NCBI GenBank assembly: GCA_002256055.1
Contig: NKIE01000030.1
Span: 1 to 13,484 of the forward strand
DNA length: 13,484 bases
Reading direction: 5' to 3'
Source of the DNA: Pseudomonas sp. PGPPP3
GTDB lineage: Bacteria; Pseudomonadota; Gammaproteobacteria; Pseudomonadales; Pseudomonadaceae
In this document: positions 1 to 12,210 of the stretch, piece by piece
Numbering within the stretch: the first letter of the stretch is position 1
How the letters are laid out: each line of letters begins with the position of its first letter
The notes under the pieces: generated by a model
Told to the model about the DNA's origin: nothing
Seen by the model: only the letters and a program-made list of their open reading frames with translations
Database searches by the model: none
Translations under genes and position numbers: made by a program

Positions 1-3000
1 TTCCTCTGGTGCTACCAGCTCAATCTTCCGCTCAGCAGCCTCTAACTGAGCACGATTGCGGATCTGTACGTCTTGCCCGTTAGCCGAATATACAAATCCA
101 TCACGGTGACGGAATCTTTGCTGCCGACAACCCAAGCGAATTGCCTCATCTACAGCCGTTGAAATCCGCGAGCCGGCACGAGTAACACCGAAGGCATCCA
201 TCAGCCGGCGGGTGATATCACTCTCGTGAACGGGCGCTTCCCCCTCAACCACCGCACTGATCATTTGAACAAGTCGTTCGGGCTTTTCTTGGTGGAGCTG
301 TACGCTTGTGTCCAACACAGGGCTTAGTCGTACCTGCACATAAGGCCGACTCGAACTTGGCAGTTTTTCCTCCGCCGGTTGCCCACGTACGATTTCATGC
401 TTGGGCTCAGGTGCCGCTACTTCAGGCACAATCAAGTCACGCTGCTCTGCAAGCTTCTGCCGTGCAGCCTCAATTGCAGCTACGGCGCGGATAATTTCCT
501 GCTGCGGATTGCGGAACCAATCAGTACTCCAGATGCGATGGAAGTTCCAGCCAAGCCCCTCAAGCACGCCCTGGCGCAACCGATCACGGTCACGGGCAGA
601 ACGCGAGCTGTGGTAAGCAGCACCATCGCATTCGATAGCCAACACATAACGGCCTGGATATTCAGGATCTTTGACGGCGATATCAATGAAGTAACCCGCT
701 GTACCCACCTGTGGCTCAACGACATAGTTGCGTTCACGTAGTGCTTCAATCACCTCAAGCTCAAAGGGTGAATCTGCCGCTTTCCCCGTTTCCGTGGCCA
801 CCTCTAACTCGCCAGTTTCAGCGAATTTTAAAAAGTTACGTAGCGCCCTCACTCCGTGACTTGCACCGGCATCCAGCTCAAGCTCATCGGCCCTGAAGTT
901 AGAGAACACCCGCATTGCCATCTTCGCGCGAGTAATTAGAACGTTGAGTCGGCGATGCCCGCCTTCACGATTCAACGGGCCAAACTCTTTGGCGATTCGT
1001 CCAGACTCATTGCGCCCGTAGCCGACGCTAATAAAGATCACATCACGCTCATCGCCTTGGATGTTTTCAAGGTTCTTGGTGAAGAATGGCTCGCTGCTTT
1101 CGCGCGTGAAGAACACCTCAGCCTCTGGCGTTTTTCTGCGCAGCAACTCAACTTCGACTTGGATTAAATCCCGTTGCGCCACGCTAAAGGCGGCAACACC
1201 CAGAGATAACTCAGGGGTGCGAATGGCGTGTTCCATCACCGCACGAGCGACGGCCTTAGCCTCTTCTTTATTTGTCCGCGTACGACCCCGGTCATAAAGC
1301 GCCGTAGGGTCATAATCAAAGCTCACACCTTTAGCATGTGGATGCTGTCCAGCAGACGGAAATACCACCAATTTACTGTCGTAAAACTCGACATTGGAAA
1401 CAGCAATCAATGATTCATGACGGCTACGGTAGTGCCAGCGCAAATAGCGCTCTTGGCTACCCGCGGCCTTGAACATGGTCAGAATGCTTTCGATATCACC
1501 CGTGGCACTGTCCTCATCATCCATTTCGACTTCACGGCTGAAAAAGTCAGTTGGTGGCATCTGCCGAGTATCGCCAACCACCACTACCTGCTTGCCACGC
1601 ATAATCGCGCCAAAGGCATCAACCGCCTTAACCTGCGAGGCTTCGTCGAACACCACCACATCGAACTCCAGCTTGCCCGGCGGCAGAAAGTTGGCAATCG
1701 ACATCGGGCTCATCATAAACACCGGTTTGATCTGCTGAATCGCGCGACCAGCCTTCTCGATCAACTGGCGAATCGGCATGTGCCGCCGCTTCTTGTTCAA
1801 CTCGCCGCGCAAGATGGCCATCTCGCCCGGTTGATTGATATTCGGCATGCTCTCCCAAACCTGCTTGGCCAGGCTGGTTTGTGCATGCCGCAGAGAAGCC
1901 AGATCAAGATTACGAAAACGGCTGATCTGATGCTCGTGCTTAATACGGTCAAACTGCTGCAAGGCTGGCTTATCGGCATAGACCCGCTGAACAAGCCCGG
2001 AGTACCAGGAAAGATCGAGAATATCGGTCAATAGCGCCGGTTCATCGCTGACCGAAGCAAGCTGGAGAAGCTCGTCGAGACGTTCTGCGCGAAGTTGCCC
2101 TGCAAGAACGTTCCAACGGGACATTTGGTAAAGAGCTGTCAGGTTTTCCAACCACTGCTGCAAACGTGTACCCAAGTCTTGCAAGCCCAGTGCTCTGACG
2201 CTGTCTTTATCTTTCTGCGACTGCATCCCGGTGATATCGAGCGAACTGCGCAGCGCCTTGTCCAACCCGACCACGTGTTGTTCGATACTCGCAACAGCAT
2301 CACCCAGCCCTGTAGCATCCGCATGGCCAGCCAGGAAGCTAATGATTCCTTTCGGTATTTCACCGTTGCCCAAATCATCATGCAGCTTGATGACCCAACT
2401 ACTCAAACGCTCAAGTACAGGCCAGTCAGACTTTTGCCGCTGCCACTGAGCGCCGAACAACGCGCTGCCCAACGTCTCATGCTGATCGTAGATTTTCTTG
2501 CCTTGCTGATAGGTCAATACTGAATCTACCAGCGCCAGCTGCTCAGAATTGGCTTTCGGTAAAGCCTCCCGAGCCAAGCCTTGTAGGCGCGTACGCGCTG
2601 CACGGAACCGCCCAGAGAATACCTTCCACCATTTGTCGCCGTAGGCCAGCAAACACTGGCGCACTTCCAACAAGTCCTGCTCCCAGGCCGCATCAATCAA
2701 CGCACTGTCATACTGGTTACGACAGGCTGACATTTGCTCCCCGGCCTGCAACAGCTCGCGAATAACATCGCGGCGCGACTGCCAGTCACCAGTTGATAAC
2801 TGCACCCCATCCAAACGCGGCGCCTCTGCGGCGCGGCGTGCAGCCCGGCAAATAACATCGACATCAGCCAGTGTCGCCGGGTGGGTCAGCATTAATCGCT
2901 CAGAAAGAGCACTGGCCGCAGACTGCAGAGCAGCCAAGTGACCACTCGCCTGCTGTAAGGCATCCGTAGCGTTACTTTGCTCAATGGGTGAGAAGTAAGT

Positions 3001-4578
3001 TCGCTCCGTCCCCCAGAAAGCACTTTGCTCGGGACGTCCCATCTCTTGCAGGTGCAGCACGAGTTCCTTGACTAGCTCTCGGCGCTTTAATTGCTCGGCA
3101 TGGCTCCAGCTTGCCATGGGAGCAAAGGCTAGAACCGGCAAACCTGGCTTGGTACGCTTTAACTTCAGGTAACTGCCCAGCACCTCAATAAAAGCTAGGC
3201 CGCTGGCACCGGCCAGCGAGCTGACGGCCTCGCAGTAAAGATTCAAGCCATCTTGCAGCTCTTTAAGGCTGGCCAGGTCTTCCACACCAACCTTGGTCAG
3301 TGGCCGCCCCTGGTCGAGCGTGCGTGCTAATTCTTTAAGCACAGATTGCTTGGTCGACTTATGGCTGTGCAGCTCAAACACTGCATCGCCTAAGTGGCAC
3401 TCATCCAAACGACGCTTAACCACCTCAAGCGCTGCCATTTTTTCAGCGACAAACAGTACGGTCTTTTTTTGGCCAATCAGCTCGGCAATCACGTTGGTAA
3501 TGGTTTGTGATTTACCTGTGCCCGGCGGCCCTTGAATCACCAGGTTGGCACCAGCACGAATTTCCAAAATAGCTTCGGTTTGGCTGCTGTCGGCATCCTT
3601 AACAAAGCGAACATCGCCGGGGTTAATCACCGAGTCGATATTCACCTCTTCGGGATAAGCACTGCGTTGATCGCCAAAACCGCCGCCCAGCAAACGCTTC
3701 AATACGCCATGCTCGTCAGGTTGTTTTTCTTCTGGCCAGCTCTTCGGATCAAGGTCCTTGAACATCAAAAATTTGCCAAACGAAAAGAACCCTAGAGCGA
3801 CCTCATTGGGCGCAATCTTCCAGCGCTTTTGCTTACTAACTACATCGCCAACATTGGCAAAGAACGCGCTCAGCGCATCACCATCAGTGGCATCTACTAC
3901 GTCACCTAAACTGCACGTCGACATATCCAGGCCAAAATCAGTTTTAAGCTTGGCTACCAGCGATAGGTTCTCAACCAGGTCGTCGCCTGAATACTTCAGC
4001 GCAAAACCGTCTTTAGCACCACTGCGCTCCAGGCTAACCGGCAGCAATAGCAAAGGAGCTTTACGCAGGTTGTCCGAGCTATCGGCTTCGTACCAATGCA
4101 AAAACCCCAGGGCCAGAAACAAGGTGTTCACCCCTTGTTCTTCGATGAAGCCTTTGGCCTCGGCATGTATTTTCAATAACTGCAGAAATAGCCGCTCATC
4201 ATCCAGCGCCGTTTGTAAGCGGCTATCGAGATGTCGACGCGCCTTACCCGTTGCACTGTCAGCGTCATCGTCTGCAGCACTAGACCAATCCAGACTATCC
4301 AGCTCATGCAGGAGCTGCTCATCGCTTGCCGACTCATCATCCTCAAACGCCTCAGGATTGGCAGACTTAGCCAACTCCGTCAGCTTTTGCCGAGCCATAG
4401 GCGCGAAGGTCATCGCCTTTTCCTGGCAATAGAGGATTTTGAAAACCTCCTCCGACAGTTCATCCACCACCACGAGGGTTTTGGCTGTCTTGCGGAAGTT
4501 GAGCATATTGTTTCGAAGTCCAATATCCAGCAGCTCTTTGCGGCTGCTCTGGAGCTTCTGACTGATCCCTGCACTCAT
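1..4578 (-). CDS. DUF4011 / SF1 helicase / Vsr-like nuclease / DUF3320 protein, C-terminus cut by window edge
   Basis: Large ATP-dependent helicase-nuclease, probably an antiphage DNA-targeting protein. I read the frame codon by codon from the ATG at 4578 to position 1: 1526 codons with no stop, so the C-terminus lies outside. Residues 1 to about 260 look like DUF4011 (LRNNMLNFRKT near residue 22). Helicase motifs follow: Walker A GPPGTGKS at 350-357, DEASQ at 978-982, GDTRQMPP at 1002-1009, WHYRSRHE at 1048-1055, QGDERD at 1174-1179 and LNVLITRAK at 1211-1219. The roughly 600-residue insertion between Walker A and DEAS is rich in helical, coiled-coil-like sequence. A Vsr/DUF559-type nuclease follows, with D1299 and ECDG at 1316-1319 as probable catalytic residues. 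The last 100 or so residues (APVHESDITRRLMDAFG) match DUF3320. This domain order is that of the class named Hhe in defence surveys (from memory). The start is preceded only by a weak GGGA. It is the last visible gene of the leftward set, 107 bp after the DUF4236 gene. Domain calls are firm; the role is inferred. Confidence 0.93.
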   Translation of the reverse strand, partial: MSAGISQKLQSSRKELLDIGLRNNMLNFRKTAKTLVVVDELSEEVFKILYCQEKAMTFAPMARQKLTELAKSANPEAFEDDESASDEQLLHELDSLDWSSAADDDADSATGKARRHLDSRLQTALDDERLFLQLLKIHAEAKGFIEEQGVNTLFLALGFLHWYEADSSDNLRKAPLLLLPVSLERSGAKDGFALKYSGDDLVENLSLVAKLKTDFGLDMSTCSLGDVVDATDGDALSAFFANVGDVVSKQKRWKIAPNEVALGFFSFGKFLMFKDLDPKSWPEEKQPDEHGVLKRLLGGGFGDQRSAYPEEVNIDSVINPGDVRFVKDADSSQTEAILEIRAGANLVIQGPPGTGKSQTITNVIAELIGQKKTVLFVAEKMAALEVVKRRLDECHLGDAVFELHSHKSTKQSVLKELARTLDQGRPLTKVGVEDLASLKELQDGLNLYCEAVSSLAGASGLAFIEVLGSYLKLKRTKPGLPVLAFAPMASWSHAEQLKRRELVKELVLHLQEMGRPEQSAFWGTERTYFSPIEQSNATDALQQASGHLAALQSAASALSERLMLTHPATLADVDVICRAARRAAEAPRLDGVQLSTGDWQSRRDVIRELLQAGEQMSACRNQYDSALIDAAWEQDLLEVRQCLLAYGDKWWKVFSGRFRAARTRLQGLAREALPKANSEQLALVDSVLTYQQGKKIYDQHETLGSALFGAQWQRQKSDWPVLERLSSWVIKLHDDLGNGEIPKGIISFLAGHADATGLGDAVASIEQHVVGLDKALRSSLDITGMQSQKDKDSVRALGLQDLGTRLQQWLENLTALYQMSRWNVLAGQLRAERLDELLQLASVSDEPALLTDILDLSWYSGLVQRVYADKPALQQFDRIKHEHQISRFRNLDLASLRHAQTSLAKQVWESMPNINQPGEMAILRGELNKKRRHMPIRQLIEKAGRAIQQIKPVFMMSPMSIANFLPPGKLEFDVVVFDEASQVKAVDAFGAIMRGKQVVVVGDTRQMPPTDFFSREVEMDDEDSATGDIESILTMFKAAGSQERYLRWHYRSRHESLIAVSNVEFYDSKLVVFPSAGQHPHAKGVSFDYDPTALYDRGRTRTNKEEAKAVARAVMEHAIRTPELSLGVAAFSVAQRDLIQVEVELLRRKTPEAEVFFTRESSEPFFTKNLENIQGDERDVIFISVGYGRNESGRIAKEFGPLNREGGHRRLNVLITRAKMAMRVFSNFRADELELDAGASHGVRALRNFLKFAETGELEVATETGKAADSPFELEVIEALRERNYVVEPQVGTAGYFIDIAVKDPEYPGRYVLAIECDGAAYHSSRSARDRDRLRQGVLEGLGWNFHRIWSTDWFRNPQQEIIRAVAAIEAARQKLAEQRDLIVPEVAAPEPKHEIVRGQPAEEKLPSSSRPYVQVRLSPVLDTSVQLHQEKPERLVQMISAVVEGEAPVHESDITRRLMDAFGVTRAGSRISTAVDEAIRLGCRQQRFRHRDGFVYSANGQDVQIRNRAQLEAAERKIELVAPEE

Positions 4579-4625
4579 AGAAAATCCCACTATCTGAAAC
4601 AGCAAATCGAGCTATTGGACATCAA

Positions 4626-4661
4626 CCGCATGTGCCAAGGTGAAAAATTCAGCACATACGG
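4626..4661. promoter_or_regulatory. 10-bp inverted repeat in the gap before the helicase gene
   Basis: The arms CCGCATGTGC (4626-4635) and GCACATACGG (4652-4661) are complementary at 9 of 10 DNA positions. The remaining position is a U-G pair in the leftward transcript, so the RNA could form a 10-bp stem with a 16-nt loop. No T-run follows on the minus strand, so it is not a typical intrinsic terminator. It sits 48-83 nt upstream of the helicase ATG. A TTGACG hexamer (4673-4668, minus strand) lies just upstream and could be a -35 element, but I see no convincing -10. It may be an operator, an mRNA processing or attenuation hairpin, or chance. Confidence 0.45.
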
Positions 4662-4685
4662 CTACGGCGTCAATTGACAGGTGTG

Positions 4686-5852
4686 TTATTGATCATCAGC
4701 TGTTTTAGCAGGCAGGCGCGCTGCTGAGTCCACGCCACCAGAGCCAGAGATGTGGCTACTGCGAAAAGCAGCATGCATTGCAGAGAGCGCATGCGCCAAA
4801 CCATCAAAGCCACCATTCTTAGATCCGATGAAGCGCACATCCAAGCCATCTGGAGTCGATATATTTAACTGGCTATATGCGCAAATAGGCAGCTCCCGAT
4901 TGTTCTTGAAACGCCTGTCAGGGCCACCTTTCTTGTTAACGTACTGCCAGGTTTTATCGACAACCTGTGCATCACCGGGAACAGACTCACTCTCCACGTA
5001 TTTGACACGCTCACTTTGCGCAGACAACTTGGCATACTCAATTGCGCCTACAGCTTTGCCTTGAAATGCCAGTACGCGGTCTGGGTAAAAAGCCAATGTG
5101 GTTTTATCCGATGTAAGCACCGGTACCGGCACGTTCGCTACGACGCCGGGTGCATGCCCAAGCACCAGACGTGCCCCACCAAACCTCAAGCCCTGACCTG
5201 CACCAGCTGAATACTTTTTGTCGGCGTACTGTGAAGTAGAGGCAATCGATTTAATTTTTCTCGCCGTCGCAGCCTGCTTAAGCTCGCGACACAAGCAATC
5301 GAAAAGATCATTGGTAACCTGGTCAGGCTCGTAGAAAAGAACGGTCAGTTTGCCCATTTGGTCCCGCCAATAGACCCACCCAGCAATCGCTACAAAAGTG
5401 ACAAACACCACAGGACGCAGAAACGCAGGCCAAGCCCCGCTAACGACTACAAACAGGGAAAAAAGCACCAGCAGGCCGACACATACAAAGGGCCATAGCG
5501 GCACCTTAGAGAATTGCTCATTCATTGATTGCAGCAGTGCATCGCTCGTGGAATCGCTAAGTTCTAGAACACTGGTGGTCTCATGTTCCACTCGGGCAAT
5601 AACGTTGAAGTCATCGGAGCCCTGAGGCGTGTCTACACGCTTGGGCGCAACGATAGGTTGGGACTTGCCCTGTGGTCGGGCATTTAGGCTCTTGCGATAG
5701 CGAAAACCCCCAACACCACCGCCAATGTACGCTCCACGGGCACCGATGCCGACGCGAAGCCCAGGCACGCCAAGTGATATGCCAATACCTGCCGTAGAAA
5801 AATTAAATCGAACGGCGCCAAATTTCACACTGCGAGAAAAACTGAGACTCAC
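4686..5852 (-). CDS. DUF4236 domain membrane protein
   Basis: A 388-residue protein. Residues 1-55 are a DUF4236 domain: SRSVKFGAVRFNFSTAG, then a glycine-rich G-x-G repeat and a RYRKSL tail. Two hydrophobic segments at about 119-139 and 145-162 should form a membrane hairpin with the rest in the cytoplasm. The C-terminal part (170-388) is soluble and matches no family I recognise. The GTG start overlaps the TGA of the upstream DUF262 gene (GTGA). A perfect AAGGAGG at 5863-5857, inside the end of that gene, is only 4 nt from the GTG and fixes the start. The ATG at 5854 is in the upstream gene's frame, followed at once by its stop, so it cannot be used. DUF4236 has no assigned biochemical function. 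Position in a nuclease-rich operon suggests a membrane-linked defence component, which is inference. Confidence 0.88.
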   Translation of the reverse strand: MSLSFSRSVKFGAVRFNFSTAGIGISLGVPGLRVGIGARGAYIGGGVGGFRYRKSLNARPQGKSQPIVAPKRVDTPQGSDDFNVIARVEHETTSVLELSDSTSDALLQSMNEQFSKVPLWPFVCVGLLVLFSLFVVVSGAWPAFLRPVVFVTFVAIAGWVYWRDQMGKLTVLFYEPDQVTNDLFDCLCRELKQAATARKIKSIASTSQYADKKYSAGAGQGLRFGGARLVLGHAPGVVANVPVPVLTSDKTTLAFYPDRVLAFQGKAVGAIEYAKLSAQSERVKYVESESVPGDAQVVDKTWQYVNKKGGPDRRFKNNRELPICAYSQLNISTPDGLDVRFIGSKNGGFDGLAHALSAMHAAFRSSHISGSGGVDSAARLPAKTADDQ

Positions 5853-7687
5853 ATGTCCTCCTTGATGGCGGCCATGTCGGACGCGAAGTGAGCCAATAGG
5901 GCCGCTCTGCCGCTTTCGCTCCCAATTCCTGAAGACAACAACTCAAACCCTCGACGCACCAGCGCAGCGATCAAGTTGCGGCGCTGCTTGAGAAAGTCAA
6001 AATATTCCAGCGTCTCCCACCCTAGAGGCAGCGCATGCAATTGATGCATGTGCTGCCAAGCATCTTGACTGAAATGCTCTCGAATCTTCGGCAGATATAC
6101 AGTCGGGGCGTCATCCGAAATCTGGATGTTCTCGCTCCACTCGATCAGCGCGTAGTTGGCAAGCTGGTTGGTCTGGCGCTGTTCCACGATGCCGGAATTG
6201 ATCAACCAGGCTTTCGGGAACAGGTGATGGCGCTCCAACGACTCCTTGGTACTCACAACCGCTGGATCAAGCAGATCGCTGACCTTTTTGTGCGAGAACA
6301 GCACAGGCGCACTTAACAGATTCTGGGCTGCCACAAAGGCAAAAAACTCCGGGCTGCGCGCCGAAGAACTCTCCATGCTGAACGGCAACGTGATGTCCCA
6401 GAAGTCTCCCGTCAGCTCACTAGCCATCTTGCTTTCCAGCAACTCGGCGAACGCCGCGGCAGTACTAATACCGCGCAAATCAGCAAGATCCGCGTCCAAC
6501 TTCGACTCTGGAGAGGACGAGTAACGGCCTTTCAGTGTGATAAAGAAGAACCAGCGCCCAATCAGACGCTGCAGTTGCGCCTCGGGCACCTTTAGCTCCA
6601 CCCGGCCAATCAGGTAGAACACATAGCCATACATCAACGCCAGCTCGGACGAAACCATCTGCCGGCTGCGAAAGCCCGCCCCCACCAAGGCACTTAGATA
6701 CTGATGCCAATGGGTCAGGTTCAGCACATCGGCCTGCGCGGCCTTCAGCTTCGCAAACTGCTGATCACGAACCACTGCCGAATATTCACCGGTATCGGCA
6801 TCCTTGCCTCGCAGCACCTGGTAGACGGACTTCAGTCGGGCGCGACGAAACGCCAGTGCCACCGACACACGCAAGAGCTGGTCAGGGTCAGGTTCGATAA
6901 AGTGATTGAACGATGACTTGCCCTGGGCTGGCTGCCTGGAATCCGCACAGAACTTCTCCAGCGCCAGCCGCCCTTCATGCCAGAACACCGAGAGCAGGGT
7001 CAGAATGAAGTCCGCTTGATTGAGCTTCTTGCCCTCGCTGTTGATCCGCACGAAGATCTCGGCGACATGCTCCTCATCCACGTTCTCGGCAATCTCCAGC
7101 GCCGTGAATGGGTATCCCTTTAGATTGATCAGCTGCTGAATGTTGTCAGCAATCTGCTCTTCTTCAGCCTCATCCAGCGCTTCGCGCTCACTCAGCTTGT
7201 CGATAAAGGCATTGATCAGCTTGCGGCTATTCTGCCCTTCCGCCCACAGCACAGAAATATTAGCGATCCATTCCGGGTCACGACGGATGCTGTTGTCCGC
7301 CACCTCGAACCGGCCACTACGTGGGTGGAAGGCAATCTCGATCTGCCGCTTCTGGTAGTTCTCATCAAGTACGGTCTGCCCGCGGAACACCGCATAGAGC
7401 GATGTCAGCCGCTGCTGTCCATCCACGATCAGACGATTGGGAACGTCATGCACCTTCGGGCCGCTGCCAATGCTGCGGCTCTTGTCATCGCTCTGATTGG
7501 CCCAGAACAGGAAGTAGCCAACGGGGAAGCCACGGTACATGGAATCGAACAGGTCGCGAACCTTGGTGTTCTTCCAGACAAAGGGCCGCTGAATATCCGG
7601 CAGGCCGATATCGCCTGTTTCAATGTAATTCAGCAGATTATCAAGGCTGTAATCAACCCGTTTGAAGCAAATTGCGCTATCGGCCAT
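5849..7687 (-). CDS. DUF262 protein with C-terminal HNH-like motif (GmrSD/BrxU-like)
   Basis: A 612-residue protein with the hallmarks of DUF262, a ParB/Srx-like nucleotide-binding fold: LPDIQRPFVWK (29-39), FPVGYFLFW (54-62), LIVDGQQRLTSLYAV (86-100) and FVRINSEGKKLNQADF (212-227). DGQQR is the conserved DUF262 motif. The C-terminal part has ERHHLFPKAWL (485-495), then NQLAN (507-511) and a later ISDDAP. This spacing resembles the His-Asn-rich metal finger of HNH nucleases in GmrSD-type (type IV) enzymes and BrxU, which restrict modified phage DNA. The ATG at 7687 has no strong ribosome site (GCGGA is about 11 nt away), but the N-terminus aligns with the usual DUF262 start. It lies 53 bp after the nuclease gene and overlaps the DUF4236 gene by 4 bp. 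A modified-DNA nuclease role is inferred from family; a toxin-like or complex-bound role is possible. Confidence 0.9.
   Translation of the reverse strand: MADSAICFKRVDYSLDNLLNYIETGDIGLPDIQRPFVWKNTKVRDLFDSMYRGFPVGYFLFWANQSDDKSRSIGSGPKVHDVPNRLIVDGQQRLTSLYAVFRGQTVLDENYQKRQIEIAFHPRSGRFEVADNSIRRDPEWIANISVLWAEGQNSRKLINAFIDKLSEREALDEAEEEQIADNIQQLINLKGYPFTALEIAENVDEEHVAEIFVRINSEGKKLNQADFILTLLSVFWHEGRLALEKFCADSRQPAQGKSSFNHFIEPDPDQLLRVSVALAFRRARLKSVYQVLRGKDADTGEYSAVVRDQQFAKLKAAQADVLNLTHWHQYLSALVGAGFRSRQMVSSELALMYGYVFYLIGRVELKVPEAQLQRLIGRWFFFITLKGRYSSSPESKLDADLADLRGISTAAAFAELLESKMASELTGDFWDITLPFSMESSSARSPEFFAFVAAQNLLSAPVLFSHKKVSDLLDPAVVSTKESLERHHLFPKAWLINSGIVEQRQTNQLANYALIEWSENIQISDDAPTVYLPKIREHFSQDAWQHMHQLHALPLGWETLEYFDFLKQRRNLIAALVRRGFELLSSGIGSESGRAALLAHFASDMAAIKEDM
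5857..5863 (-). promoter_or_regulatory. Shine-Dalgarno for the DUF4236 gene
   Basis: AAGGAGG lies within the last codons of the DUF262 gene, 4 nt before the GTG start. The short spacing plus the GTGA overlap suggest that ribosomes finishing the DUF262 gene restart here, giving coupled, stoichiometric expression. Confidence 0.7.
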
Positions 7688-7740
7688 GGCAGTAAAATCC
7701 GCTTACTCAGCAAGTAACATCCGTTCAAACACGCGATTGC

Positions 7741-8973
7741 TCAACGCATTGCCGCGTCCACATCTGCCAGAGCAACTCTGACATCCAGTGCCAGCTTCAC
7801 AATCCGGCTTACAAAGCCCTGCTCTGTCGTGTCGCTAATGCGCAACCAAGGCTCTGCAGATGCTGCCCAGTTGCGCTCGCTATCACTTAGTACACGATCG
7901 TGCACACCAGTACCGATGTACCAGGGCCAGTTCGCGCCACGCTGTCCCACAGCAAAAGCGCTATCCATTGCCTCGGCAATTACTTCAACGTTGACGGCAT
8001 TAAGCTTGACGTCGGCATTGTCGCGGCAAATACCCCACTCCAGCTTATCTAGCCGTGCAGCCCCAAATTCAAAGCGCAGGTGTAGCTGGTGCGCTGGGTT
8101 TAGCTTCACGCCAAAACCTGCATACGCACGACCGCTGGCTAGTGCCTGGTCATCCCAAACTAAACCCAGTCCTTGGACCTCTAGGGCTTGCCCCAGAGAG
8201 TGTTTGAATTCAGCCAGTAACTGCTTTTTCACCTGATCGATGGACTGCGCCACCTTTAGCGCCGCCTCTAGGTGCTCCGGCTTTTGCAGGATCACCGCCT
8301 TGATTTGCTCTGCCTCGCTCACGTCACTCTCTCCATTAACCTGCTGGCGCACATAGGCGCTGAGGGCTTCTACAAACAGCCGTACTTTTGGGGCGCGGGT
8401 GTGGCAAGCGCTGTCATCCAGCCATTCGGCGATCTGTAAAAAACCCAGACGCAAGAAGTTGCCGGTTTGCTCCAGCGCTTCGCGCTGTGCCGGGTTCAAA
8501 CTGGCTTCGGAAGGTTCCCAGTTGCAGGCATACACCAGCAGCCATTGCCTACCGCCGGCCGACGTCTGCAGAAAGCGCGCGTAGTCTTCTAGCTGCTTAT
8601 CCTGGTCGGCGGCCCATGGCTTGTTCTCGATGCCGATTACGCCACCGCGAAACTCAAGGTAAATATCCAGAAAACGGCCGCTACGGGTGCGTTTTTCCAA
8701 CTCAACGCGCAGCAGATCTTGCGGCTCAAAGCCGGGTTGCCCCAAGCGCTGCAGCAGGCCGCGTAAAAACAGTTCGCCCTGACCGTGCACACCTTTGGTA
8801 TCCAGCAACAGGCCGAGGTAGCGCGACAGTGCCACCTCGTTATTGCGCAGGTGGTCCACCAGGCTAAAGTCCGGCGCCAACTCAGCGGCGTAGCTCTGTT
8901 TGGCTTCGGCCAGGGATGCCGCGCGAATACGCACGGCATCGAGCAGGTCGATAATAGTGGCCGGGGTGCTCAT
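7741..8973 (-). CDS. PD-(D/E)XK nuclease family protein
   Basis: A 410-residue protein beginning MSTPATIIDLL. A PD-(D/E)XK core appears at about 88-135: D103 in FLDIYLEF, then E116 and K118 in GVIGIENKPWAADQDKQLEDY. This matches the D...ExK active site with the trailing DQ..QL..Y helix typical of the PDDEXK_4 family; E91 could be the extra N-terminal acidic residue. The C-terminal half (about 200-410) is not recognisable and may bind DNA or a partner. The ATG at 8973 overlaps the hsdS stop (ATGA) and is preceded by GGAGGAGG (8988-8981) with 7 nt spacing, so this start is well supported. A longer reading frame extends to 9096, but that stretch is proline- and arginine-rich, lies inside hsdS and is rejected. 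It probably cleaves DNA, and the operon position suggests it works with HsdM/HsdS or as an accessory. Confidence 0.88.
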   Translation of the reverse strand: MSTPATIIDLLDAVRIRAASLAEAKQSYAAELAPDFSLVDHLRNNEVALSRYLGLLLDTKGVHGQGELFLRGLLQRLGQPGFEPQDLLRVELEKRTRSGRFLDIYLEFRGGVIGIENKPWAADQDKQLEDYARFLQTSAGGRQWLLVYACNWEPSEASLNPAQREALEQTGNFLRLGFLQIAEWLDDSACHTRAPKVRLFVEALSAYVRQQVNGESDVSEAEQIKAVILQKPEHLEAALKVAQSIDQVKKQLLAEFKHSLGQALEVQGLGLVWDDQALASGRAYAGFGVKLNPAHQLHLRFEFGAARLDKLEWGICRDNADVKLNAVNVEVIAEAMDSAFAVGQRGANWPWYIGTGVHDRVLSDSERNWAASAEPWLRISDTTEQGFVSRIVKLALDVRVALADVDAAMR

Positions 8974-10289
8974 GCCAGCGCCTCCTCCACAGCTTGCTCT
9001 GCGTCGGGCAGGCGCAGTTGGCCGGAGATTAGGCGGGGTAATAGGGTGTCGCGCAGTTGGGTGAGGGTTTGGGTTTGCTGCTCGCTTGCAATCCAACCAT
9101 CGAGAGCGGCTCCGGCAACGTCCTCAAACACGCTTAAAACTTCTTTAGGCGGCAGTAATACAGGATGATTTGAAACGAGCCCTTTGTTGAGATTCTGCTG
9201 TGCTGACCCTGATGATTTTGACGCCAACGCTGCACGCTCTCGACGAGCACATATAAACGTAAATGCTCTGGAATAAACCCGCGGGATAAGCCCGCAACAG
9301 GCCTGGTTAGCAGTGGATGGATTAGCTAACAAACAAACCTCACCGGCCGTGGCTCCATACATAGCCACCACGGTTGTTCCCTGAGGCCATATCTTGGCGG
9401 AGCTTTGATTAACGCCTAGCTCGGTTATTTTTTCCTTGGTATTCAGAACAATTGGTTTTCGTACTTCGCCGGATGTAAGCCACGGCACTTCTCCGCCCCA
9501 ATATTCCGGGGCCGTACGCTTTGGAGTCCCGCCACTTTCTACTCGTTCACAGCAGTCAGATAGCACGCCGACACGCCACCCCTTTGGCACCAAGCCCAGT
9601 TGGGACTCTTCGAAGCTGTCGGGGAACAGGGCGGCGGTGGGGGCGTCCATGGCTTGGGGTTCGAGTCCTTCGGCCTTGGCGCGCACGGGGTCGAAATCGA
9701 CGAACCAGGATTTGAACAGCGCCTGGGCGATGGCTTCCAGGGTCGCGTTGGTTTCACGTAGCACCTTGATACGGCTGTCCAGGGCTTCCAGAACTGAAGC
9801 TATGGTCTCCTGCTCTGGGAGAGGAGGAACCCTGATATCTGCTTTTTTAAAATCCTTCAGAACCACACGCGGAATAGCAGCACCTGATATGAAATTACTT
9901 TTCAGATAATCAATCACATCTGCAGAAGACAAATAGTACTTAAGGTAACTCGTCAGAACTTTAGATTTATCTGGTCGCAAAATTGCGACGGACGACAGTA
10001 AAACCGCATCTAATTCAGCATCCACGGAACACACTGTATCGAGCGCAGAGTTACCATCCTTCGCTATCAGAACATCGCCAACTTCAGGTTTGCACCCTTG
10101 TTTAATCAGTACATTGAAGTCTTCTTCTGAAATCAATCGTGCATTAGAAATATCCACACCAAATCTAGTGAGATCTTTCACCGACGCCATAGGCTTACCC
10201 GTAGTAACAGATTTCGGGCTTTGATGAGCTCCATCAGTAATTTTTAAACAAAGCTCACTTAGCTTTATCAGAGGCCAGTCAGAACTCAT
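8970..10289 (-). CDS. hsdS: Type I restriction-modification specificity subunit
   Basis: A 439-residue DNA-recognition subunit that guides HsdM to a bipartite target site. It shows the two-domain HsdS plan: target-recognition domain 1 at about 1-155, ending in DIRVPPLPEQETIASVLEAL; a central conserved helix at about 157-205 with LEAIAQALFKSWFVDFDPVRAK; target-recognition domain 2 at about 235-380 with ESGGTPKRTAPEYWGG and GSAQQNLNKG; and a distal helix ending LRDTLLPRLISGQLRL. Each recognition domain reads one half of the site and the helices set the spacing. The target sequence cannot be deduced from protein alone. The start at 10289 has GGAGG (10302-10298) at 8 nt inside the end of hsdM, overlapping it by 11 bp. 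DNA for domain 1 is much more AT-rich than the central helix and hsdM, a usual sign of recognition-domain exchange. Confidence 0.96.
   Translation of the reverse strand: MSSDWPLIKLSELCLKITDGAHQSPKSVTTGKPMASVKDLTRFGVDISNARLISEEDFNVLIKQGCKPEVGDVLIAKDGNSALDTVCSVDAELDAVLLSSVAILRPDKSKVLTSYLKYYLSSADVIDYLKSNFISGAAIPRVVLKDFKKADIRVPPLPEQETIASVLEALDSRIKVLRETNATLEAIAQALFKSWFVDFDPVRAKAEGLEPQAMDAPTAALFPDSFEESQLGLVPKGWRVGVLSDCCERVESGGTPKRTAPEYWGGEVPWLTSGEVRKPIVLNTKEKITELGVNQSSAKIWPQGTTVVAMYGATAGEVCLLANPSTANQACCGLIPRVYSRAFTFICARRERAALASKSSGSAQQNLNKGLVSNHPVLLPPKEVLSVFEDVAGAALDGWIASEQQTQTLTQLRDTLLPRLISGQLRLPDAEQAVEEALA
8981..8988 (-). promoter_or_regulatory. Shine-Dalgarno deciding the PD-(D/E)XK nuclease start
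   Basis: GGAGGAGG on the minus strand lies inside the 3' end of hsdS, with GGAGG 7 nt from the ATG at 8973. It supports the 410-residue product over the upstream extension and implies translational coupling to hsdS. Confidence 0.75.
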
Positions 10290-12210
10290 ACCCTAGCCCT
10301 CCCAACTTCTGCCGGATCAGTTGATCGAGTTCTGCGCCTTTGGCCATCTGCTCGCCCAGTTGGGCGGTGAGCTTTTGCATCTTCTCGGCAAAGGCTTCCT
10401 CGTCGTCTTCCACCTCTTCGGCACCGACATAGCGGCCCGGCGTAAGTACATGGCCGTGCTCAGCGATTTCACTGAGTTTGACGCTGCGGCAGAAACCGGC
10501 GATGTCCTGGTAGTCGGCAATCTCACCACCCACGTCCAGCGGTTCGCCGCGCCAGTTGGCGACGGTCTGGGCGATGCGTTCGATGTCGCTGTCGAGCAGT
10601 TCGATCTGCACGCGGCTGACATTAGTGCCGAGTTTGCGCGCGTCGATAAACAGCACTTCACCGGGGCGGGCAACTTTCTGTTTGGCCAAGAACCACAGGC
10701 AGGCGGGAATCGGGGTGTTGAAGAACAGCTGGCCGGGCAGCGCGACCATCACTTCCACCACGTCGGCCTCGACCATGGCGCGGCGGATGTCGCCTTCGCT
10801 GTTCTGGCTGGAGCTCATCGAGCCGTTGGCCAGCACGATGCCCGCGCGGCCGCTGGGTTTCAGGTGGTAGAGCATGTGTTGCAGCCAGGCATAGTTGGCG
10901 TTGCCTTGCGGCGGGCTGCCATAGACCCAACGCGGGTCACCTTCCACGCTGCCGGGCCACCAGTCGCTGATATTGAACGGCGGGTTGGCCAGCACAAAGT
11001 CGGCACGCAGGTCTGAATGCTGGTTGCGGATAAAGGTGTCGGCCGGCTCTTTACCGAGATTGAAGTCGATGCCCCGAATGGCCAGGTTCATAGCAGCCAA
11101 GCGCCAGGTGGTGGGGTTAGCCTCCTGACCGTAGATCGATACGTCGCCCAGCTTGCCGCCGTGGGCCTCGATAAACTTCTCGGACTGCACAAACATGCCG
11201 CCCGAGCCGCAGCACGGGTCATAGACCTTGCCATGGTGCGGGTTGAGCACCGCCACCAGGGTTTTAACGATGCTGGCGGGCGTATAGAACTGCCCGCCCC
11301 GCTTGCCTTCGGCGCTGGCGAACTGACCGAGGAAGTATTCGTAGACCTGGCCGAGTAGATCGCGGGCCTTATTGGCGTCGGTGCCAAAGCCGATGGTGGA
11401 GATCAAGTCCACCAGCTCGCCGAGCTTGCCGTCTGGCAATTGGGCGCGAGCGTAGCGTTTGTCGAGGATGTTCTTCAGGCGCGGATTTTCCGCTTCGATG
11501 GCACTTAGGGCGTCGTCGATGCGTTTGCCGATATCCACCTGTTTGGCGGCGGCGCGCAACGACTCCCAACGGGCCACGGCCGGCACCCAGAACACGTTGA
11601 CCTCTTTGTAGTAGTCGCGGTCTTCCAGCTCGGCATTGATCAGCTCAGGGTCATCGCTGCCCAGGTAGTAATCGTCCTGTTCATCGCTGAGCTTGCGCTC
11701 CAGCTCGGTGCGGCGACCGGCGAAGCTGTCGGAGATGTACTTGAGGAAGATCAGCCCAAGCACGATGTGCTTGTACTCGGCGGCGTCCATGTTGGCGCGC
11801 ATTTTATCGGCAGTGGCCCAGAGGGTTTTCTGCATATCTTGCAGGGTGCTGCTGGCCTGCTGCTTGGCTGGGCTGCGCACGCTGGCGACGGCCTCGGTCA
11901 GGTAGGCAGCGGAGGCTTCGGCCACACTGGCTGGTTCAAAGCGCTCGCGGGCTTTACTCAGCGCTTGTTCAGCCAAGCTCAGGCTAGCGCCCTCCTCGGC
12001 CTGGGTGCGTTTGACCGCACCACCGCGACCACGGCCCTTGGCCAACTCACCCGCCTCAATCAAGGCGTCACGCACCGCCCAGAACTCATCCTCACTCACC
12101 TGTGGGAACTGGCCACGCAGAACCTCCAGCAGCGACTGGTTACCAATCGTGCTGCCATCGGCCGGTACTGCAGCCAGCAGGGCCGCACGCAGAAGCGGTG
12201 CTTCGTTCAT
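10279..12210 (-). CDS. hsdM: Type I restriction-modification N6-adenine methyltransferase subunit with N-terminal extension
   Basis: A 643-residue S-adenosylmethionine-dependent methylase that modifies adenine in the site chosen by HsdS. The HsdM_N helical domain starts near residue 123 (LQDMQKTLWATADKMRAN...YKHIVLGLIFLKYISDSF). QFYTP is at 307-311, the cofactor-binding motif DPCCGSGG at 331-338 and the catalytic NPPF at 409-412. The C-terminal helices (about 598-640) should contact HsdS. The protein is longer than the common 500-530 residues: residues 1-70 look like a winged helix (DEFWAVRDALIEAGELAKGRGRGG), joined by an alanine- and glutamate-rich linker (about 72-120). The ATG at 12210 has GGAG (12220-12217) at 6 nt, so the extension is very likely translated. 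It is the first gene of the leftward nuclease operon. No hsdR follows within the window. Confidence 0.97.
   Translation of the reverse strand: MNEAPLLRAALLAAVPADGSTIGNQSLLEVLRGQFPQVSEDEFWAVRDALIEAGELAKGRGRGGAVKRTQAEEGASLSLAEQALSKARERFEPASVAEASAAYLTEAVASVRSPAKQQASSTLQDMQKTLWATADKMRANMDAAEYKHIVLGLIFLKYISDSFAGRRTELERKLSDEQDDYYLGSDDPELINAELEDRDYYKEVNVFWVPAVARWESLRAAAKQVDIGKRIDDALSAIEAENPRLKNILDKRYARAQLPDGKLGELVDLISTIGFGTDANKARDLLGQVYEYFLGQFASAEGKRGGQFYTPASIVKTLVAVLNPHHGKVYDPCCGSGGMFVQSEKFIEAHGGKLGDVSIYGQEANPTTWRLAAMNLAIRGIDFNLGKEPADTFIRNQHSDLRADFVLANPPFNISDWWPGSVEGDPRWVYGSPPQGNANYAWLQHMLYHLKPSGRAGIVLANGSMSSSQNSEGDIRRAMVEADVVEVMVALPGQLFFNTPIPACLWFLAKQKVARPGEVLFIDARKLGTNVSRVQIELLDSDIERIAQTVANWRGEPLDVGGEIADYQDIAGFCRSVKLSEIAEHGHVLTPGRYVGAEEVEDDEEAFAEKMQKLTAQLGEQMAKGAELDQLIRQKLGGLGYEF

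Follow-up and report, generated by a model that had tools for sequence, protein, structure and literature searches.

Defence-type genes behind hsdS in a probable hsdM-hsdS-hsdR operon of Pseudomonas sp. PGPPP3

What do hsdM and hsdS do in front of four genes of other kinds when no hsdR is to be seen? The question is raised by contig NKIE01000030.1 of Pseudomonas sp. PGPPP3, the whole of which was analysed (13,484 bp, referred to here as the window). The original prediction for this sequence left two answers: accessory defence genes inserted behind hsdS, with hsdR lying farther away beyond them, or an HsdM-HsdS pair that marks self for a different motor-nuclease set, which would be a new methylation-linked defence system. 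Comparison with related loci makes it highly probable that the locus is a type I restriction-modification (RM) operon of the form hsdM-hsdS-...-hsdR, in which four distinct genes of defence type lie between hsdS and hsdR. The best reading of this interval is that it would serve as a slot for independent defence genes. The locus is thus most likely an example of an arrangement that is already known, and would represent no new form of immunity.

Read along the minus strand, hsdM and hsdS come first, then genes for a PD-(D/E)XK nuclease, a DUF262/GmrSD-like protein, a DUF4236 protein and a DUF4011 helicase-nuclease, and all six match named families. The type I DNA methyltransferase subunit HsdM (643 aa, 10279..12210, minus strand) has Pfam matches to N6_Mtase (1.1e-107) and HsdM_N (1.4e-22), a PADLOC MTase_I match and an NPPF motif. 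It carries about 120 extra residues ahead of the HsdM_N domain (window 11848-12210), much of which is absent from some relatives. The specificity subunit HsdS (439 aa, 8970..10289, minus strand) matches Methylase_S in two stretches (6.2e-27) and PADLOC Specificity_I (5.4e-102). HsdM and HsdS are encoded together in the window, as in a type I RM system. Overlaps of 11 bp (hsdM/hsdS), 4 bp (hsdS/nuclease) and 4 bp (DUF262/DUF4236) suggest that transcription and translation would be shared within the operon. The genes, families, strand and overlaps given in the original prediction are confirmed by the Pfam and PADLOC matches and by the coordinates.

The absence of hsdR from the window had been correctly noted. 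It is uninformative, because the window is an entire contig (C320) whose left end cuts the helicase gene. The assembly is that of a Pseudomonas-like genome, 81% complete and in 914 contigs. The nearest named relative examined is Pseudomonas abietaniphila ATCC 700689 (locus L009), in which the DUF262 protein is 94% identical and the order is hsdM, hsdS, PD-(D/E)XK, DUF262, helicase, Fic, hsdR, without DUF4236. Its HsdR has 1033 aa (TIGR00348, 613.7 bits). When the PGPPP3 genome was searched with this protein, contig C531 proved to begin with the C-terminal 191 residues of an HsdR that is 96% identical to it. When the L009 DNA from the helicase end to beyond hsdR was compared with the genome, it matched nothing but the terminal part of C320 and the beginning of C531. 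The G+C content is 55.5% in the window and 53.6% in C531. It is most likely, on these comparisons, that the missing hsdR is an assembly boundary effect and was cut off by the contig end.

A close HsdM (E up to 1e-150) was found in 25 of 398 Pseudomonas genomes, including PGPPP3 itself, and loci were fetched from 20 of the 24 others (G004, G147, G319 and G348 were left out). The HsdR fragment on C531 is 85-97% identical to the HsdR of 17 of these 20 loci and of L009, and at most 66% identical to those of L090, L091 and the outgroup loci; the corresponding part in L073 lies beyond the stretch. Among the fetched loci it is closest to L072 (97% protein, 88% DNA), which is also the nearest along the helicase gene and in part of hsdM, and in which hsdR adjoins the helicase gene. 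A search of the genome with HSDR_N gave a single HsdR, of another kind, on contig C640 (L003/L026). With a G+C content of 64.3%, against 55.5% in the window, C640 may represent a second system or contamination.

In all 20 fetched loci hsdR lies 3' of hsdS on the same strand; the hsd genes of L089 are in pieces and the hsdR of L073 runs off the stretch. The hsdS-hsdR interval ranges from -1 to 12976 bp, and 16 of the 20 have at least one open reading frame (ORF) of at least 90 aa in it, with none in L076, L087, L089 and L091. Its content was assigned by similarity to chosen representatives of the cargo families, not ORF by ORF. The PD-(D/E)XK nuclease is found in L074 and L077, and the helicase in L072 and L075, with hsdR directly next in both. 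Also present are Fic (L073, L078 and L083, with a partial match in L090), a pair of AAA and McrBC-like genes (L072, L075, L078), a Zorya type I ABCD set (L073, L077) and a YhcG-type nuclease (L073, L079, L084, L085, L088). Neither the DUF4236 nor the DUF262 protein has a match in any of the 20. Most of the representatives tested belong to defence-type families by PADLOC or Pfam. A further cargo family of 312-327 aa is present in eight loci, directly after hsdS in L081-L086 and L088 and deeper in the interval in L073; for the member in L073 neither Pfam nor PADLOC gave a match, and the family is a candidate defence gene.

The arrangement extends to plasmids. There were 187 plasmid records with HsdM matches, and in all seven examined, which were drawn from the best 15, hsdR follows hsdS on the same strand with at least one gene between hsdS and the annotated type I subunit R. 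The records come from Azotobacter (2), Pseudomonas (3), Polaromonas and Acidovorax. Both Azotobacter plasmids have a second Fic gene between hsdM and hsdS (L118 15548-16630; L119 16139-17221), besides the Fic gene between hsdS and hsdR. Variable foreign genes inside a conserved hsdM-hsdS-hsdR backbone are seen in the relatives; in the window the hsdR end lies off the contig. Of the two answers first proposed, nesting between hsdS and a more distant hsdR is supported by the C531 fragment, P. abietaniphila, the 20 fetched loci and the seven plasmids.

The window has a mosaic make-up when set against these loci, the nearest relative changing from segment to segment. For hsdM it is mostly L072 or L073, for the end of hsdS and the nuclease gene L074, L009 or L077, for the DUF262 gene L009 and for the helicase gene L072; the DUF4236 gene is near to nothing. 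The conserved middle of hsdS matches 18-19 loci and its variable parts match none or one. Remnants of YhcG of 65-168 bp occur in six of the 14 loci without an intact YhcG among the 19 tested (L076, L080, L081, L086, L087, L089; L090 and L091 were omitted). A 39 bp match in L082 is perhaps only the conserved start region of hsdR, and the remaining seven have none. The remnants can be read as scars of lost cargo. Recombination close to the conserved 3' end of hsdS and to the start of hsdR would bring cargo in and take it out, and decay of cargo would leave such remnants.

In an exploratory permutation test, the C-terminal 11 residues of HsdS were associated with the kind of gene that comes first in the cargo, with counts out of 5000 of 0 for all 19 loci, 41 for group A and 30 for group B. 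This test was devised after the tails had been inspected, its groups were drawn by hand, and it omits L089 as well as L090 and L091. The last 150 nt of hsdS gave little signal in relation to cargo type (69.3 versus 66.8% mean identity).

The first of the four cargo genes encodes the PD-(D/E)XK nuclease (7741..8973, minus strand; 410 aa from the likely ATG), with a PDDEXK_4 match (1.1e-13), the PADLOC candidate family PDC-S26 and the nuclease motif in its sequence. The ORF as called is 7741-9096. The start is most likely the ATG at 8973, because 410 aa is the length of most close homologues, and the overlaps are therefore those originally named. The second gene (5849..7687, minus strand) encodes a protein of 612 aa with the N-terminal DUF262 domain that characterises GmrSD (GmrSD_N/DUF262 2.3e-31) and a DGQQR motif. 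It is HEC-05-like by PADLOC and matches the solved structure 7p9k (E 4.8e-9). Of the predicted DUF262-HNH protein, the DUF262 part is confirmed by Pfam; the HNH part stands as an HH..P...N-like C-terminal motif in the sequence, for which Pfam gave no DUF1524 or HNH match.

The third gene (4686..5852, minus strand) encodes the DUF4236 protein of 388 aa (Pfam DUF4236 1.4e-10). It has a hydrophobic stretch at about residues 114-162 by hydropathy and is likely to be membrane-anchored. It has no match in PADLOC or NCBIfam, and none of the libraries searched names DUF4236 as defence. The fourth gene (1..4605, minus strand, 3' end cut) encodes an SF1 helicase with DUF4011 (1.2e-40), parts of AAA_11/AAA_12, a Vsr-like nuclease domain (REase_MTES_1575, 8.1e-38) and DUF3320, and scores 1973 bits against PADLOC PDC-S37. 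Its start may be the ATG at 4578. The window holds 1535 of its residues, against 1592-1626 in the ORFs of relatives, and the contig end leaves it some 66-68 residues short of full-length relatives. It falls below the NCBIfam cut-offs for Hhe (1060.9 vs 2000 bits) and ProA (1430.6 vs 1500 bits), having been scored in its 3'-cut form and with an N terminus also shorter than that of ProA. HsdM, the PD-(D/E)XK nuclease, the DUF262 protein and the helicase, including the nuclease part at its C terminus, each have the motifs characteristic of their kind.

Relatives of the cargo genes were also followed away from hsdM and hsdS. The DUF262 protein led to 12 loci, in six of which (L004-L009) it lies between hsdS and hsdR and in one (L012) directly after hsdR. 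In the other five no hsdM or hsdS match was found; of these, L010 comes from a contig of small size, and a 54-residue HsdR-like match remains in L014. The only other DUF262 match in the 398 Pseudomonas genomes (G415, 34-36%) is also between hsd-like genes. The DUF262 gene thus favours type I loci, in agreement with the report that type I genes are the commonest defence neighbours of GmrSD homologues (PMC4619093). Helicase orthologues (E up to 1e-200) were found in nine of the 398 genomes, these being PGPPP3, the two hsd loci L072 and L075, and six others with no hsd match in the sequence covered (about 20 kb in four, contigs of only 8-10 kb in two). One of the core defence hotspots of P. aeruginosa is reported to be bordered by a conserved DUF4011 gene (PMC10250203).

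Full-length DUF4236 relatives are few in the genomes sampled: two of the 398 Pseudomonas genomes have one (E up to 1e-8), as do two of 293 genomes of the class (E up to 1e-30), PGPPP3 counted in both. The protein database gave 696 matches; one of its DUF4236 proteins (P0002) and one of its nucleases (P0124) each have a longest contig of 5722 bases and may lie on the same one. There were 35 plasmid records with matches, and in the ten contexts examined no hsd genes were annotated nearby (the gene table being incomplete) and none match those of the window. One relative, in G412, lies near a different hsd locus, and a scan of viral contigs found none. The 4 bp overlap had raised the idea of a DUF262-DUF4236 two-gene unit, which was rejected since none of the ten plasmid and two genomic DUF4236 contexts has a DUF262 match. 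On the P. aeruginosa plasmid pHPA0875-2 (L113 1-7098), one of the ten, the DUF4236 relative adjoins a DUF3320/DUF4011 helicase gene, like that of the window. For the PD-(D/E)XK nuclease, no hsd match lies in the 20 kb covered around each of three distant relatives (28-44% identical; 57 related genomes). The case for its independence from hsdMS is weak, because the close relatives seen in context (L009, L074, L077) all occupy the hsdS-hsdR slot.

How do the other explanations fare? That HsdM and HsdS mark self for a dedicated four-gene motor-nuclease set working without HsdR deserves hardly any credence. The window has no hsdR and its cargo is packed tightly behind hsdS, as that explanation would have it, but the genome does contain an hsdR fragment, hsdR follows in the relatives examined, the cargo set is not conserved among loci, and the six helicase orthologues outside hsd loci show no hsd match in the sequence covered. 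A new methylation-linked system was rejected on the strength of the matching hsdR and the unconserved cargo. As findings that would tell against it, the original prediction had named an hsdR directly after the helicase gene with unconserved neighbours in relatives, or inserted genes occurring independently of hsdMS. The former is what L072 and L075 present; the latter is seen for the helicase, DUF262 and DUF4236 genes, which have relatives with no hsdMS detected, and for the PD-(D/E)XK gene in its three distant relatives only. A fixed block hsdM-hsdS-PDDEXK-DUF262-DUF4236-DUF4011 was rejected, since DUF4236 is absent from L009 and from every one of the 20 fetched loci, none of which has the DUF262 gene either except L009. 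The locus is not a MADS either, with 59.5 bits against a cut-off of 720 for the MAD2 methylase and 32 against 400 for the MAD5 specificity subunit. It is very improbable, too, that the HsdR of C531 comes from another type I locus, leaving the hsdMS of the window with no hsdR of its own. By sequence the fragment belongs with the HsdRs encoded behind this family of hsdM, the others being more distant, and a DNA search of the genome with hsdM gave no further copy and, elsewhere in the genome, a match of only 44 bases; such an origin would fit the inferred join in so fragmented and incomplete a genome, and the second, different HsdR on C640.

Two further explanations tie the cargo to the type I complex. 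The gene for PrrC sits between hsdS and hsdR. Its product is reported to be silenced by the type I enzyme to which the gene is linked (PMC2610378), and the cargo here might likewise be guards wired to the complex, which would silence them until it is blocked by a phage. This is quite unlikely. It would agree with the exploratory association between the HsdS tail and the first cargo gene within the two groups, but recombination at the end of hsdS explains that pattern equally well, and three of the cargo proteins (helicase, DUF262, DUF4236) have relatives for which no type I locus was detected. It is also unlikely that the slot is a cassette in which the hsdS 3' tail and the cargo travel together, with the cargo, DUF4236 included, tied to the complex through the tail; such cargo could, for example, act as guards firing upon a block of the type I complex. 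A slot for independent defence genes is preferred on what was directly observed, namely the gene order up to the contig end, the matching hsdR fragment in the same genome and the variable interval in relatives. Some points weigh against it. Several cargo proteins, of the 312-aa and 169-aa families, are matched by neither Pfam nor PADLOC. Neither L009 nor any of the 20 fetched loci has a counterpart of the DUF4236 gene, whose position in the operon is thus seen in the window only. The assembly lacks the stretch that would connect C320 to C531, and their join is inferred.

In the operon so read, HsdM2S would methylate host sites, and HsdR2M2S would translocate on and cut unmodified phage DNA. 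The GmrSD-like protein would cut phage DNA with modified cytosines that evades type I restriction, like TgvAB. The PD-(D/E)XK nuclease and the helicase-nuclease would be further independent effectors, and the DUF4236 protein could be a membrane-anchored partner, sensor or effector. These activities are all proposed from gene content and comparison.

Embedded defences are reportedly the subject of a 2024 preprint by Payne et al. Genes between hsdS and hsdR are already known in RloF and DarTG2, and within a type I operon in TgvAB. The last is a GmrSD-like pair on the VPI-2 island of Vibrio cholerae, described as lying inside a type I operon that retains hsdM, hsdS and hsdR, and its action on modified DNA has been shown (PMC11411939). 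It resembles the window in having a DUF262-type protein in such an operon, but consists of two proteins where the window has one, and in the window three more genes of other families stand in the interval. The same source equates HEC-05 with BrxU. DarTG2 is reported between hsdS and hsdR on the RRDM island of enteropathogenic E. coli (PMC12255303), the same interval as in the window, although its cargo is a toxin-antitoxin system. RRDM also has a gene for the repressor RptR in front. RloF, found with other R-linked ORFs in type I loci of Campylobacter, is likewise a DUF262 gene between hsdS and hsdR, in another host group (PMC4619093). The PADLOC-DB models HEC-05/BrxU, PDC-S37 and PDC-S26 match three of the four cargo proteins, but are single-gene models and leave DUF4236 unmatched. 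In a literature search limited to titles, none names a Pseudomonas hsdS-hsdR slot, and a first description is not claimed.

The result removes the false lead of an HsdR-less methylation-linked system. It also provides a comparative case in which a single conserved type I backbone, chromosomal or plasmid-borne, carries cargo ranging from nothing to a Zorya set, and in which lost cargo has left remnants. New defence genes may be sought in slots of this kind, and the DUF4236 protein described here and the 312-aa protein of eight loci are candidates.

Scans of the window for promoters (3 found, 6.8 expected) and terminators (17 found, 13.7 expected) were uninformative, and searches of it gave no Rfam match and no tRNA. 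Past the hsdR fragment, C531 (L024 584-6099) encodes a helicase of 1048 aa with DrmD/DpdE-like matches and a protein of 717 aa with a NERD match, so that putative defence genes continue beyond hsdR on this contig.

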